Positions 388 to 61,100 of a stretch of 64,000 bases of DNA are shown here, one piece after another. The stretch spans positions 14,566,992 to 14,630,991 of the forward strand of contig JASSKH010000003.1 in NCBI GenBank assembly GCA_031763025.1, in the 5' to 3' direction. Position 1 is the first letter of the stretch, and each line of letters starts with the position of its first letter. The notes under the pieces were generated by a model, which was not told the DNA's origin, did not search any database, and was given only the letters and a program-made list of their open reading frames with translations. Source of the stretch: Macrocystis pyrifera (lineage: Eukaryota; Sar; Phaeophyceae; Laminariales; Laminariaceae). A program made the translations under genes and the position numbers.

Positions 388-777
388 TGTACTCGATAGG
401 AGAGATGTACTCGATCTCATGCATGGCCATAGTCGTATGACCATAGACCCTCGCATCCCTACAATGCCGGGACGGAGCATGTCGGGTTTTCACCGACCAG
501 GCAGACATTGCTTGCACCAAGCGCGAAGCGCCGTGAGGTGTTCGGCGAGTCGCATGAAGGGTGAGCTGCGTCCTGCTAAGAACCGCCTGTGAGGCGGACT
601 TGCATATGGATGACAGCTTCAATGAGTTAGTTTAGTTTCCGGTGTAGCCACTTCCAGAGACAGCAGTGGGAGTACTATGTAACTGCCTCTTGGGTGCCTT
701 ACCTTGAACACTACGTGGTACGATGAATTCCCTTGTGCTGAGTAAAGGTTCTTTACTTCGCACAAATGCTGTTGCCT
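388..777 (-). mobile_element. F1 short retroelement, 5'-truncated
   Basis: Read on the minus strand, it ends in the family 3' terminus (ACGGCCATGCATGA, then GAGTAC) followed by (C)27. It carries the duplicated GAGTACATCTCTCCTATCGA tail variant also seen at 10.7, 14.8, 32.7 and 51.6 kb. The 5' side stops near CACAAATG, about two thirds of full length. No coding capacity is evident. Confidence 0.85.
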
Positions 778-929
778 GTAGCTCCCTCCCTTTCGTGTCG
801 CTTCGTCCGCGCAGCAGAAGATATCTGTCCTTCCTGAGTACGTATGCTTTCCGTCTGGCAGCCTTTCTGAAGTCCTTGCGTCGTTTGTATACTGTTTTCA
901 TTTCAATTTTTTTTTTTTTTTGTTTCATT

Positions 930-1285
930 GTTTTTTTGCTCTTATTTTCTGGTCCTGCTTGTGTTGTGGTGTTCTCGTACCCGGTACGCTGTCATTTCAC
1001 TCGCTTGACACTTGAATTTGCGATTCTTTTTTCTTTTTTCTTTTCTTTTTATGTTTTGGTCTTCCTCTGTCTCACAGTCTGTGACCGCAGAATCAGTATC
1101 CCTCTAGGATAAGGAATCAGGACGGACACTATTACGGGGGTCCATAGTTAACGGGACGAAATTTTGTTAGTAAAAATAGTTAAATATATAGGTTTTTATG
1201 TACACCATAGGTCCTGTTAACTATGGACCCCCGTAATAGGTGCACTGATGAAGCTGGGTAGAAAGGACGATTTAATGTGAAGACA
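930..1285 (-). repeat. Dispersed repeat Q interrupted by MITE-A
   Basis: Reverse-complement relative of 50030-50265. The shared blocks include the complement of ACCAGGACCAG-type sequence near 940, CACTCGCTTGACACTTGAA, and GATGAAGCTGGGTAGAAAGG at 1248. A MITE-A sits between the halves, so the copy at 50 kb shows the unoccupied arrangement. Partial copies also lie at 22640-22760 and 41190-41340. Class unknown. Confidence 0.65.
1130..1238 (-). mobile_element. MITE-A copy 1
   Basis: Inverted termini TTACGGGGGTCCATAGTTAA (left) and its complement (right), bounded by TA. Both ends are of the t subtype (GTCCATAGTTAA). Strand follows the convention that the half with CCTATGGTATAC comes first. It is inserted in repeat Q. 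Confidence 0.92.
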
Positions 1286-1336
1286 ACAACAACAACAACA
1301 ACAACAAATGATCTAACTCGACGACCAGCTGTGGGC

Positions 1337-1905
1337 GGGGGGGGGGGGGGGGGGCGTACTCATTTGTTGCTTGCCTTAGTCGTTTGACCATTGACCACGC
1401 ATCCCTTTCGAGACGGACCGCCGTTGCTACTCCTAATAGAGACACCTTCAACAATTAGGCGCTCATTACGTTGCTTCCATGTATCACATACCTGGTAGTT
1501 TTTTTTTGCTAACCTTGTCCCCTTCCTGTTTGGTCTCCTGTGGCCACCATCTATCTCCTAGAATAGCGATCGTTTTCTCGCTGCTATCTGATGTACGCAA
1601 CTCCTCCATGTGTCACATTCGCCTATTTCCCTCATCTCCTCTTCCGACACATCCCGTTCCTCCTTGTACATTTCACATTCTCCTACTTTGTGAGTTCTAC
1701 TCTCTATTGCTTTGCCACACGGGCACATCTGTGCATCTACTTCCTCCTCCTCCCGGTTACTGGTATACCTCTTTCTTCTTTCTGGCAGGTCCAGGTCCCC
1801 TACACGAAATCACAGTTTCAGCGTTTTCGCGAAGTCCATTGGGCCGTGCAAGTACGTTTTCATTATTATACCTTCCCTCAATACCCTGGGATCTGAGTTA
1901 CCACG
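1337..1905 (-). mobile_element. 5'-truncated LINE (C-tailed), 3' end
   Basis: The G tract at 1337-1354 is the complement of the C tail. To its right, the minus strand reads ...GACTAAGGCAAGCAACAAATGAGTACG-(C)n. Further in, around 1725, the minus strand encodes a zinc-knuckle-like C-P-C-G...E-T-R-T-H-I-A-R-E-C, typical of the C terminus of LINE ORF2 proteins. A near-identical but mutated copy is at 33287-34005. Similarity fades near 1905. Confidence 0.8.
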
Positions 1906-2804
1906 ACATAAGGGCAGGGAAGGCGAAATATAGAGCGAAAAGGGCCAAGGAAATGCGCAAAGAAGTTGAAGTACACCGATGACGTTCGGCCCTAGTAGGA
2001 CGTACGTAGAACAAAACGGGTCGAAACGGGGAACAGTCACGCTGTTAAGACCCCTGGCCGGGCTCCGTGTTCACTGCGCTCAGCGCTTTTATCTCTGATG
2101 TCCCCCGAGGCTCTTGGGCATCGGAGGGCTTCACGTATCACATGCAGAGCACACTCTACCTGGTACGCATGAAAAGCAAGAACATTGTGTGAATCGTGAG
2201 CAGTATGTATGTACCCACGCACGACGCAAGATAACACACATCGTTTGGAAGAATGCCCGAGACTCGAGTTTCTCCGAAACTAGGGAGGCACGCACCACGT
2301 AAATTTTCGGCTTTTGAAAGATGATCTTGCACCCTACCCGTTGAGTCGAGGTAATCTCGGGGGGGGTGTGCTTGCTACCTTGCGTGTTAAACGGTAGATA
2401 GATAGGTGACGAGGAGTTGCAAAGAGGAGGATGGCCACGGCCGTCAGATATGACAGGGTGAGAAGCAAAAGTTGGTGTCGGTTGACCGGTCTGCAGTAGT
2501 TTTGACCGATCAAGGCCCTCTTCAAACCTAATATGCTGGTGTTAGTGCGGGCAGTCCCTTGAGTGATGTCGGGTTGACGAGTCTCGTAGTTTTGATGTAA
2601 AGGGAGATAGAGACTCAGGTTTTTTTTTGGTAGACGTAGTTTACCTCTTGCCAGATCTACCTATTGAGCCTTTTAGATTTCCTGTGGTTTTCTTCTCCTT
2701 TCGGAGAGTTTTCGTGAGTGGCACAACGCTGAAGAGTGCTCGTGGCGCACATGAAATTAAAAGGTCGGATGGCAAACGCAATAACTATAATATTTGAGCG
2801 AGTT
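1906..2804. other. Unassigned stretch
   Basis: No supportable gene or repeat edge seen. One TACCTGGTA motif at 2157-2165. Open frames are short and without recognisable domains. Confidence 0.5.
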
Positions 2805-3145
2805 CTCGTTGATGTGTACTCACGTGTGTTGGTTTGCTTAGAGATAAGAGAAGAAGAGAAAAATTATTCCAATGCCGGTCATGAAGGAGACCACTACCAC
2901 GGGGGACCATAGTTAATAGGATCTGCGGTACACACAAAAACCTATATGTTCACCTATTTTTACTAACAATATTTGGTCCTATTAACTGTGGACCCCCGTA
3001 ATAGTATCCCGCCTGTCCCCAATTTTCCAATCTAAGATACGCCTCCGAAGTAATACAAATGCTTGCATACTTTCCAAAATACTGAAACTCAGGTAACCAG
3101 TAACTATCGACCTTTCACGGTATTTCAAGGCAATGCCATAATATC
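2805..3145 (-). mobile_element. Degenerate solo LTR interrupted by MITE-A
   Basis: The block at 2815 (TACTCACGTGTGTTGGTTTG) and the block at 3030-3110 (TCTAAGATACGCC, CTCAGGTAA, GACCTTTC) match, in order, the minus-strand form of the LTRs at 9812 and 14330. A MITE-A at 2895-3003 splits the copy. Both ends are eroded. Confidence 0.6.
2895..3003 (+). mobile_element. MITE-A copy 2
   Basis: Left end CACGGGGGACCATAGTTAAT mixes both subtypes; right end is t subtype. It lies inside the degenerate LTR. Confidence 0.88.
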
Positions 3146-3214
3146 GACCCGTCTTTTGGCCCCAACACAAAAGCCGGCGTCCCTGGTGGCGTGGTAGGTG
3201 GTCTACATGCCTAC

Positions 3215-59852: not shown

Positions 59853-59947
59853 TAACCCTTTTAGTACTTCAGTCCCTTTTTGGGGACAAATCACTTGGAA
59901 TTAGACTGGTTTGTCCCCAAATCGGGACTGCGGTACTAGAAGGGGTT
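59853..59947. mobile_element. MITE-P, best-preserved copy
   Basis: TTAACCCTTTTAGTACTTCAG...TTGGGGACAAATC...GGTTTGTCCCCAAATCGGGA...GTACTAGAAGGGGTTA: imperfect palindrome of ~95 bp. Confidence 0.88.
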
Positions 59948-60222
59948 AGCCAAGGTCGGGACACGTTGCATCCCTGGACACAGGTTTGCCCGTTAAGTCG
60001 GTACTCGTTGATACTCACGTGTGTTTGCTTGCTTAGCTATAGAAGAAGAGTAGCTTTAGTCCTTTCGTGCACGAGGAGACTGAGAGCCAAGCTCTCGTGC
60101 CTCTCTGGAAAACCCTGGTTTTCCACCCAAGATACGCCTTCCAAGTACTACAAATACGATCCCAGTGCCTGAACCCAGGTAATTACCGGGCTTTCAACCC
60201 CATTCAAGGCAGTATCATAACA
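59948..60222 (-). mobile_element. Solo LTR, one end lost
   Basis: The right end ATCATAACA is intact at 60214-60222. The left TGTTA(A/T)GAT is missing and the copy starts near GGTCGGGACACGTTGC, next to MITE-P. The AATAAA signal (minus strand) is changed (TTTAGTCC). Confidence 0.83.
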
Positions 60223-60457
60223 CTATACCTGCTCTACTGCCGAATCAGCGTGGGTACCCGCTGTGCCAAAAATGTATGGTTCTGTTCACGGAGTACGATC
60301 GTAGCGTCGAATTTGGGTCCTACGGAACGCAGAAGGGTTAAACTGAGCAGGTTAGTCCGTTGCTGCCAGCAAAAAAATTAGGAACAAAACGTTTCAAGCC
60401 CTGCGAGACTACTACAAATATGGCACAAGCCGAAAAGTGAGCGTGAGCCCTGCTCCT
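60223..60457. other. Unassigned spacer
   Basis: Nothing recognised. Confidence 0.4.
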
Positions 60458-60617
60458 CCCCCCCCCCCCCCCCCCCCCCCCCCCCCCCCCCCCCCCCCCC
60501 CCCCCCCCCCCCCCCCACCCCCCCCCCCCCCCCCCCCCCCCCCCCCCCCCCCCCCCCCCCCCCCCCCCCCCCCCACCCCCCGAAGGAAGACAGAAGAACC
60601 CCCCCCCCCCCCCCCCC
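60458..60617 (+). repeat. C tracts of 59, 57 and ~19 nt
   Basis: C at 60458-60516, A, C at 60518-60574, A, then GAAGGAAGACAGAAGAA and C at ~60599-60617. No element terminus precedes the first tract. Confidence 0.95.
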
Positions 60618-60749
60618 GCCGCTAAGTAGAGAGAGAGAAGAACGCCTCCTCCTCCCGTGATGAAGGGAAGGGAATGAGGCGCCCTCCCCGTCCCCCCGCG
60701 CGCTGAATGGAGAGAGAAAAGTGACCTAAAAATGCTTCCTACAAAATAT
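60618..60749. other. Unassigned spacer
   Basis: GAGAGAGAAGAACG and GGAGAGAGAAAAGTG suggest a short imperfect duplication; nothing else. Confidence 0.4.
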
Positions 60750-61052
60750 GCCAAAGCTGTCTCTGGAAGTGGCCACATCAGGAGTCAAACCAATGAATTC
60801 GAAGTTGTTATTCATTGACGAGTCCGCCTCACAGGTGGTTATCCTTAGTAGGATGCGCAGCTCGCCCTTAATGCGACTCGACGAGCACCTCGCGGGGGGT
60901 GCTTCGCGCTTGGTGCTAGCAATCTCTGCCTGATCAGTGAAAAAAAAGAAAACGACGTGCTCCGTTCGACCTTGCAGGGGGTGCGAGGGTCTATGGTCAT
61001 ACGACTACGGCCATGCATGATATCGAGTACACTCCCCCCCCCCCCCCCCCCT
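60750..61052 (+). mobile_element. F1 short retroelement, 5'-truncated and diverged
   Basis: GTCTCTGGAAGTGGCCACATC, CTTAGTAGGATGCGCAGCTC, CTTCGCGCTTGGTGC, ACTACGGCCATGCATGATATCGAGTACACT-(C)n. Confidence 0.87.
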
Positions 61053-61100
61053 CCACAACTACGGCGATGCATGACATGAGTACCCCTCCCCCCCCCCTCT
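61053..61100 (+). mobile_element. F1 terminal 30 bp after a C tract
   Basis: CCACAACTACGGCGATGCATGACATGAGTAC-(C)n directly follows the C tail of the preceding F1 copy. Confidence 0.85.

Follow-up and report, generated by a model that had tools for sequence, protein, structure and literature searches.

Site choice by long interspersed nuclear elements (LINEs) is usually explained by a sequence-specific nuclease or by pairing of a poly(A) tail with T-rich DNA; human L1 has a poly(A) tail and a T-rich target. Kojima and Fujiwara (2004) reportedly surveyed target-specific LINEs across genomes. Here we describe a LINE and a short element, F1, from a stretch of 64,000 nt of the kelp Macrocystis pyrifera (contig JASSKH010000003.1, positions 14,566,992 to 14,630,991; hereafter the window). 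Judged from their sequences, poly(C).poly(G) tracts already present in the DNA are very probably the insertion targets of both, with integration by target-primed reverse transcription.

LINEs specific for microsatellites, telomeres and RNA genes are known (PMC4640811, PMC7265360). In the sections of the first account drawn on here, the repeat-specific non-long-terminal-repeat (non-LTR) retrotransposons include some HERO families, Togen, which targets (TG)n, and apurinic/apyrimidinic endonuclease-type elements of the R1 and Tx1 clades (PMC4640811). SART1Bm is specific for (TTAGG)n telomeres, and annealing of the RNA 3′ end to the target has been proposed for it; as far as the portion of that paper used here goes, it uses a poly(A) tail, and no reverse transcription occurred from an added poly(C)18 tail (PMC7265360). 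In the trypanosomatid pairs ingi/RIME and L1Tc/NARTc, a short non-coding partner carries the 5′ signature of the autonomous element; RIME and NARTc derive by internal deletion, and the trypanosomatid elements described in the relevant part of the source carry poly(dA) (PMC3820030). Target-specific LINEs and pairs of autonomous and dependent elements are thus already known, and a homopolymer poly(C).poly(G) target is without match in the literature searched. Searches of the open-access literature, several of them broad and in which the written form poly(C) is unsearchable, found no poly(C)-targeted LINE, and a prior report is possible.

Results

A final profile search of the window recovered 10 LINE copies and 16 F1 copies (Table 1), besides short F1 3′ fragments near 44890 and 61063 and a further F1 piece that the window start truncates. 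All ten LINE positions listed in an initial annotation of this DNA have a copy at or within ~65 nt, and its estimate of about 18 F1 copies agrees with the profile copies taken together with the fragments and the cut piece. The 26 profile copies have a common 3′ end and variable 5′ truncation, the pattern that marks LINEs and that had been noted earlier for most copies. Both families end in GAGTAC, as also noted there, with a C tract usually following 0 to 3 bases later. The motif GAGTACCCCC (at most 1 mismatch) matches 24 times in the window, where 5.4 matches are expected and none of 100 shuffles reaches 24. The assembly searched comprises 537,376,219 bases in 223 contigs, one of 26.5 Mb; the part of its publication consulted gives 537 Mb in 35 scaffolds and 188 contigs, the largest 26 Mb, with a GC content of 50.37% (PMC10498591). 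In it, GAGTACCCCCC has 9,877 matches against 238 for a reversed control, the exact LINE end GGCAAGCAACAAATGAGTAC has 4,400 against 0, and a bare GAGTAC between two C8 runs has 8 against 0. The possibility that the tails are A-rich and the poly(C) an assembly artefact, which the initial annotation had itself raised, was rejected on these genome-wide counts and on the tract-bearing empty sites described below.

C's follow the 3′ end in almost every copy. Among LINE 3′ ends matching a near-exact motif in the collected sequence, a C-rich stretch comes next in 24 of 25 and an A in 0 of 25, a count that is biased because part of the sequence (L001-L008 and L051-L090, whose 3′ counts all share this bias) was collected by a motif ending in C's. 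C's also stand directly after 9/9 LINE 3′ ends of copies collected by their 5′ ends. In a set of 125 non-duplicate copies, again partly chosen by the C-ended motif, 108 have a C run of at least 6 after the 3′ end. This set excludes copies at stretch edges or without a 3′ end and near-duplicate loci (L003, L006, L007, L051-L054, L061, L068 and L070); it draws on ten loci of L071-L090, and L031-L050 are 20 of the 23 matches of one F1 5′ motif. Such figures (108/125 and 9/9) are compatible with unrestricted target choice and a poly(C) tail that the reverse transcription complex makes or needs, as with poly(A), an account to be weighed against the 5′ ends, empty sites and duplications.

In most copies a C tract likewise adjoins the 5′ end, a feature that goes beyond the initial annotation. 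A C run of at least 6, on the same strand as the element, lies near the 5′ end of 85 of the 125 copies, where control runs of G, A and T number 0, 2 and 1; random 30-mers of the same sequence hold C5 or more in 4.4%. The share is 17/26 in the window and 39/59 in the window plus same-contig stretches. Full-length copies have the run in 24 of 33 cases and truncated copies in 61 of 92, and the idea that the 5′ tract is only the element's own 5′ end was rejected on the latter count. Exact F1 5′ ends number 262 in the genome (131 per strand, counted), and CCCC lies at most 3 nt from 97 of the 131 on the reverse strand, where every site is listed once; the forward-strand figure of 255 counts overlapping matches and was not used. 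Among the matches listed in both listings, CCCC is present at 48/67 sites, and the GGGG control gave 0. Full-length LINE 5′ ends, taken as ranks 2-21 of 40 scored among 386 candidates, have C5 or more just upstream in 18 of 20, the exceptions being L097 (C-rich) and L104.

Empty paralogs containing the tract were found for two of the three LINE insertions tested; at those two sites the target was thus present before insertion and common to the insertions, as in target-specific elements. The LINE at L103/L115 sits in a high-copy repeat, and its joined flanks gave 137 matches. Sixteen paralogs spanning the whole query were fetched, of which 13 read GTTTTGCAA-C11-T-C7-ATGCGCC and the remaining three carry C12TC7, C19 and C7GC3TC7; the tract therefore pre-existed. 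The filled site reads GTTTTGCAA-C9-LINE-C21-A-C-T-C7-ATGCGCC; its right side thus acquired, either at insertion or afterwards, about 10 C's beyond the target supply. At L100/L113 the LINE sits in another repeat family, three paralogs of which (from the best 40) have C10, C15 and C11 at this place. Its left tract is C9, and its right C5 lies inside a 17-bp duplication (TCCTCGCATTCC; C5TCCTCGCATTCC), so the apparent tail needs no added C. A high-copy repeat that hosts a LINE insertion (L123-L138) has its own C11TC7 tract and is often tandem, with a step of ~144 bp.

Where target-site duplications extend past the tract, they take in the C's and a further 6-12 nt or so beyond its 3′ edge. Of the mixed set, 36 copies were testable, having 3-20 nt between left tract and element, and a matching stretch follows the right tract in 5 of them (permutation mean 0.87, P=0.0013). 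Two are in the window, F1 10547-10757 (AACCCAG) and LINE 33290-34000 (GCATTGT), and three are elsewhere, L010 (GGYTGGTGA), L021 (ACGCYWCATG) and L009 (GCTCCCC); L027 looks similar by eye (TCGCCG/TGTCGCCG). Both ends could be read for ten LINEs, namely L019 and 9 of the 12 fetched 3′ regions (L112, L117 and L121 have no recognisable end). Besides L100/L113, the duplication passes the tract at L091/L111 (TACCTCTAAG), L094/L122 (TCTTCCC), L019 (CTGTTGCGGC) and, by eye, L107/L118 (TATGCAG). An automated test flagged 5/10 LINEs (sum P=0.0002, count P=0.0018).

Taken together, these observations leave little room for the poly(C) being simply a tail. Right-hand C's do exceed the target supply at L103/L115 (C21, against C11 in the empty site), and the tracts measure C6 left against C15 right at L091/L111 and C4 against C14 at L019, as a tail would allow. 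However, the full account is contradicted by the tracts already present at two empty sites; truncated copies often begin at C tracts, and the right tract of L100/L113 is shorter than the left one and inside the duplication. We consider it barely credible. The earlier proposal that the reverse transcription complex makes or recognises a C tail has to be recast accordingly: on the empty sites, the 5′ tracts of truncated copies and the duplications containing the tract, the terminal C run appears to be largely landing site rather than tail. What survives is a contribution of C-ended RNA or slippage, which is likely at some junctions because these (L103/L115, L091/L111 and L019) hold more C's than the target supplies.

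The LINE is an element of ~6 kb with predicted endonuclease-like and reverse transcriptase domains. The longest copy read (L019+L030) measures 5,985 nt, from ACAAAATCTAGATCC to GAGTA, with broken frames. The copy at L020 has the reverse transcriptase expected of a non-LTR retrotransposon (RVT_1, E=1.4e-29) and matches R2 and LINE-1 ORF2p in PDB (best 4.7e-18). Weak matches, all below the curated cut-off, were obtained to Exo_endo_phos positions 1-47 (8.2e-05, L020) and 65-155 (0.013, L019) and to Exo_endo_phos_2 (0.00069, L020); the Exo_endo_phos matches fall in order across consecutive pieces. A C-terminal stretch rich in Cys and His, a familiar pattern, is seen by eye; a Pfam search of the window LINE piece gave no match. 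In the LINE 5′ region (L019 4100-4900), T-rich near-repeats precede the coding part, again by eye.

Several points weigh against insertion into pre-existing tracts. At the mapped 5′ boundary, a C run of at least 6 is missing from 40 of the 125 copies; some of these boundaries are alignments stopping short, and those at L017 5567, L002 2063 and L031 look real. The third site tested, L091, yielded only its own flank and no empty paralog among the best 40 of 813 candidates. No duplication past the C's is seen in five of the ten LINEs (L099, L103, L109, L093 and L102), left and right tract lengths are frequently unequal, and the endonuclease match is weak in every piece. As for the automated test, 9/90 unmatched pairs reach the score of the flagged LINE duplications, the flagged L109 is merely a C-run match and the true-looking L107 scored low. 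Moreover, duplications lying outside the 5′ C run score at least 6 in 8/90 cases (permutation mean 1.18, maximum 5 in 1000).

This last excess would be expected if the reverse transcriptase added non-templated dG at both cDNA ends, giving C runs without a C target. C's do stand between the duplication and the LINE 5′ end at L019 (CCCCTCCC), L091 (GCCCCC) and L094 (CCCCC), and at L078 a C7 separates F1 from a short ATG match. However, of the eight outside duplications most are C-rich or tandem (L009 is tandem) and only that of L019 is convincing, and two empty sites already contain the tract; non-templated addition is therefore a very unlikely source of the tracts.

We propose that insertion into the poly(C).poly(G) tract would proceed as follows. 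A nick in the G strand inside the tract would free an oligo(G) 3′ end, which would prime on the RNA where this ends 3′ in C's; the second cut, about 6-12 nt further on, would fall in the other strand. As the duplicated segment takes in the tract, a C tract would remain at both element ends, and with every insertion the landing pad would be duplicated and a new target furnished. F1 would travel with the LINE because it carries both of its ends (~74 nt at the 3′ end and ~85 nt at the 5′ end). It is conceivable, if doubtful, that base pairing and not a nuclease sets the site. G runs may fold into quadruplexes and break, and any nicked or broken G tract would then give an oligo(G) 3′ end that anneals C-ended RNA, with opportunistic insertion; this alternative shares its target with the proposed mechanism and differs over what selects the site. 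Annealing fits the strict orientation described below, the junctions inside C's seen in half of the LINEs that were read at both ends and the left tracts at duplications, which vary from C4 to C28. However, the fairly constant 6-12 nt past the tract looks like paired staggered cuts.

A tentative extension of the proposed mechanism, for which we hold a limited expectation, is that full-length RNA starts and ends in C's, transcription running from the upstream C tract into the downstream one. The 3′ C's of such an RNA would pair with oligo(G) and its 5′ C's would help to join the other end, so that both tracts are rebuilt. The C's between duplication and element start at L019, L091 and L094 would fit transcripts starting in the upstream tract, and L078 is a possible further full-length case. 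Were this so, the element would make and enlarge its own landing pads genome-wide.

Orientation and free tracts were examined in 274 kb of one contig, made up of the window with 7 kb next to it, 3 kb adjoining L019 and 20 stretches of 10 kb each, with a GC content of 50.5%. Insertion is in one orientation, with the C strand as the sense strand of the element: among 253 C tracts of at least 8, 0 adjoin only an opposite-strand element. There are 138 C tracts of at least 12, of which 38 follow an element 3′ end, 20 precede a 5′ start and 92 do neither. Pure runs of at least 12 number 99 for C/G and 48 for A/T. Chains of elements joined by C tracts occupy 58128-58506, 59045-59335, 28571-28843 and 32695-34030 in the window and are also found elsewhere; head-to-tail chains would arise because each insertion duplicates the tract and gives the next target. 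At L020 a LINE is followed head to tail by six full-length F1 copies, in which alternating variants suggest later tandem duplication. Several small contigs (L051, L052, L083, L087, L001 and others) hold near-identical segment copies (~97-99%) whose C-tract length visibly differs; the assembly containing them is reported to come from a haploid gametophyte.

Lastly, F1 (profile length 519 nt) shares both of its ends with the LINE. The last 100 nt align with a score of 61 (shuffle maximum 34, 0/1000 as high), ~74 nt being shared, which bears out the alignment of the last ~75 bp reported before. The first ~85 nt, whose similarity is new here, score 68 (shuffle maximum 26, 0/1000 as high), an alignment that rests on one LINE 5′ end (L019). 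F1 thus has a 3′ end shared with a LINE, as a short interspersed element (SINE) may, and, as RIME and NARTc do, a 5′ end in common with an autonomous element. Its middle shows no similarity to the one LINE copy compared, since 49/100 shuffles score as high, and is therefore unlike what internal deletion would leave.

The F1 consensus contains an internal run of ~20 T, which is expected to stop RNA polymerase III (Pol III). In the window no tRNA gene was detected and no Rfam match reached gathering score, and one F1 locus (L045) has a single sub-threshold snoRNA match; an Rfam family at the shared 5′ end was accordingly dropped as a candidate. No Pol III or small-RNA head for F1 was found in the tRNA and Rfam scans of the window, which included no dedicated box A/B search. 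The assignment of F1 as a RIME-like dependent partner of the LINE, and not a Pol III SINE, is supported by these sequence features. The partnership had been suggested in the initial annotation from the 3′ end and is strengthened because both ends are shared. Because of the internal T run and the lack of a small-RNA match above threshold, we class F1 with RIME and NARTc as a presumptive dependent partner, in its way of working and not in its descent. That F1 is instead an independent SINE which captured the LINE 3′ end would explain its unrelated middle, but sits poorly with the shared 5′ ~85 nt, the tRNA and Rfam results and the T run, and we regard it as improbable.

An F1 subfamily has a duplicated end, GAGTACATCTCTCCTATCGAGTACA, with the pattern GAGTACA-TCTCTCCTATC-GAGTACA (window 388-766, 10547-10757, 14818-15086, 32695-33194 and 51558-51614, plus L009). 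It looks as if the 3′ end had been joined onto an older, degraded tract.

Table 1. Copies of the LINE and of F1 in the window, with adjoining duplications and C tracts.
Positions	Strand	Feature
388..766	-	F1 copy, 5′-truncated or interrupted; duplicated end GAGTACATCTCTCCTATCGAGTACA, then C28
1356..1886	-	LINE copy, 3′ part; C tract beyond 3′ end; true 5′ end not fixed
10534..10546	+	Left target-site duplication CCCCCCAACCCAG of F1 copy 10547..10757
10547..10757	+	F1 copy, 5′-truncated; duplication C6-7 AACCCAG on both flanks
10758..10771	+	Right target-site duplication CCCCCCCAACCCAG of F1 copy 10547..10757
11119..11646	+	F1 copy of nearly full length, between C9 (5′) and C27 (3′)
12926..13102	-	F1 copy, truncated; C30 some nt upstream
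14818..15086	-	Truncated F1 copy, between C7 (5′) and C14 (3′)
19136..19667	-	F1 copy of nearly full length; C tracts on both sides, the 3′ one long
21617..21759	+	Truncated F1 copy, between C14AC5 (5′) and C20 (3′)
26284..26901	+	Long F1 copy, broken up by another repeat and followed by C tract
27010..27182	+	LINE 3′ copy; mapped 5′ boundary without C run of at least 5
27583..27637	+	Truncated LINE 3′ copy, with C7 ~19 nt upstream and C64 following
28571..28629	-	F1 copy, truncated; directly after LINE copy 28636-28843
28636..28843	-	LINE 3′ copy; CCCCCCC before
32695..33194	-	F1 copy, long; starts directly after C tract
33212..33277	-	F1 copy, truncated, in chain; target of neighbouring LINE insertion
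33271..33289	-	Right duplication, C10 AC GCATTGT, of LINE insertion 33290..34000
33290..34000	-	LINE copy, truncated
34001..34030	-	Left duplication, C23 then GCATTGT, of LINE insertion 33290..34000
40131..40301	-	F1 copy, truncated; both sides C-rich
40906..41138	-	Truncated LINE copy, beginning immediately after CCCCCCCGCCCC
51512..51557	+	C46 tract directly before short F1 copy 51558..51614
51558..51614	+	F1 copy cut down to last 57 nt, between two C tracts
51615..51652	+	C tract after short F1 copy 51558..51614
58128..58193	+	LINE 3′ copy, first of chain; mapped 5′ boundary without C run of at least 5
58202..58324	+	F1 copy; starts inside C tract of LINE copy 58128..58193
58351..58414	+	LINE copy; starts after C tract of F1 copy 58202..58324
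58441..58506	+	LINE copy; starts near C tract of LINE copy 58351..58414
59045..59195	-	F1 copy; starts directly after C tract of LINE copy 59210-59335
59210..59335	-	LINE 3′ copy; mapped 5′ boundary without C run of at least 5
60741..61031	+	F1 copy, truncated; mapped 5′ boundary without C tract

Two further features of the window were recorded. An open reading frame at 38411-39286 (+) presumably resembles part of eukaryotic DNA topoisomerase I. A repeat of ~97 nt resembling a miniature inverted-repeat transposable element has inverted ends, GGGGGTCC or GGGGGACC with an approximate complement 89 nt on; eight such spaced end pairs occur (1136-1232, 2901-2997, 17584, 17853, 26183, 30126, 30644 and 55749).

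Discussion

A LINE that uses the C/G counterpart of the familiar A/T pairing, on a common target that it duplicates itself, would be a natural test of tail-primer pairing against nuclease choice. Targeting of C tracts also offers a reason why elements of this genome form chains linked by such tracts, and it carries a warning that C 'tails' in transposable element libraries may be target DNA.

Human L1 resembles the kelp LINE in that tail and target primer are complementary homopolymers, and in its 5′ truncation and short duplications; the kelp LINE differs in that C/G replaces A/T and the tract is duplicated along with the target. Repeat-specific elements such as some HERO families and Togen resemble the kelp LINE in that their target is a single kind of simple or multicopy repeat, a habit that distributes copies among comparatively harmless sites. 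However, the account of repeat-specific LINEs, in the sections drawn on here, describes no homopolymer target, whereas that of the kelp LINE would be poly(C).poly(G) (PMC4640811). SART1Bm, as far as the source used extends, likewise inserts inside a short-unit tandem repeat, but has a poly(A) tail, whereas the 3′ run of the kelp LINE consists of C's that match the target. The pairs ingi/RIME and L1Tc/NARTc, in the portion of the account relied on, share with the kelp pair a common 5′ signature and a tandem arrangement of the two elements; F1 differs from RIME and NARTc in that its middle is unrelated to the LINE and its ends meet C tracts.

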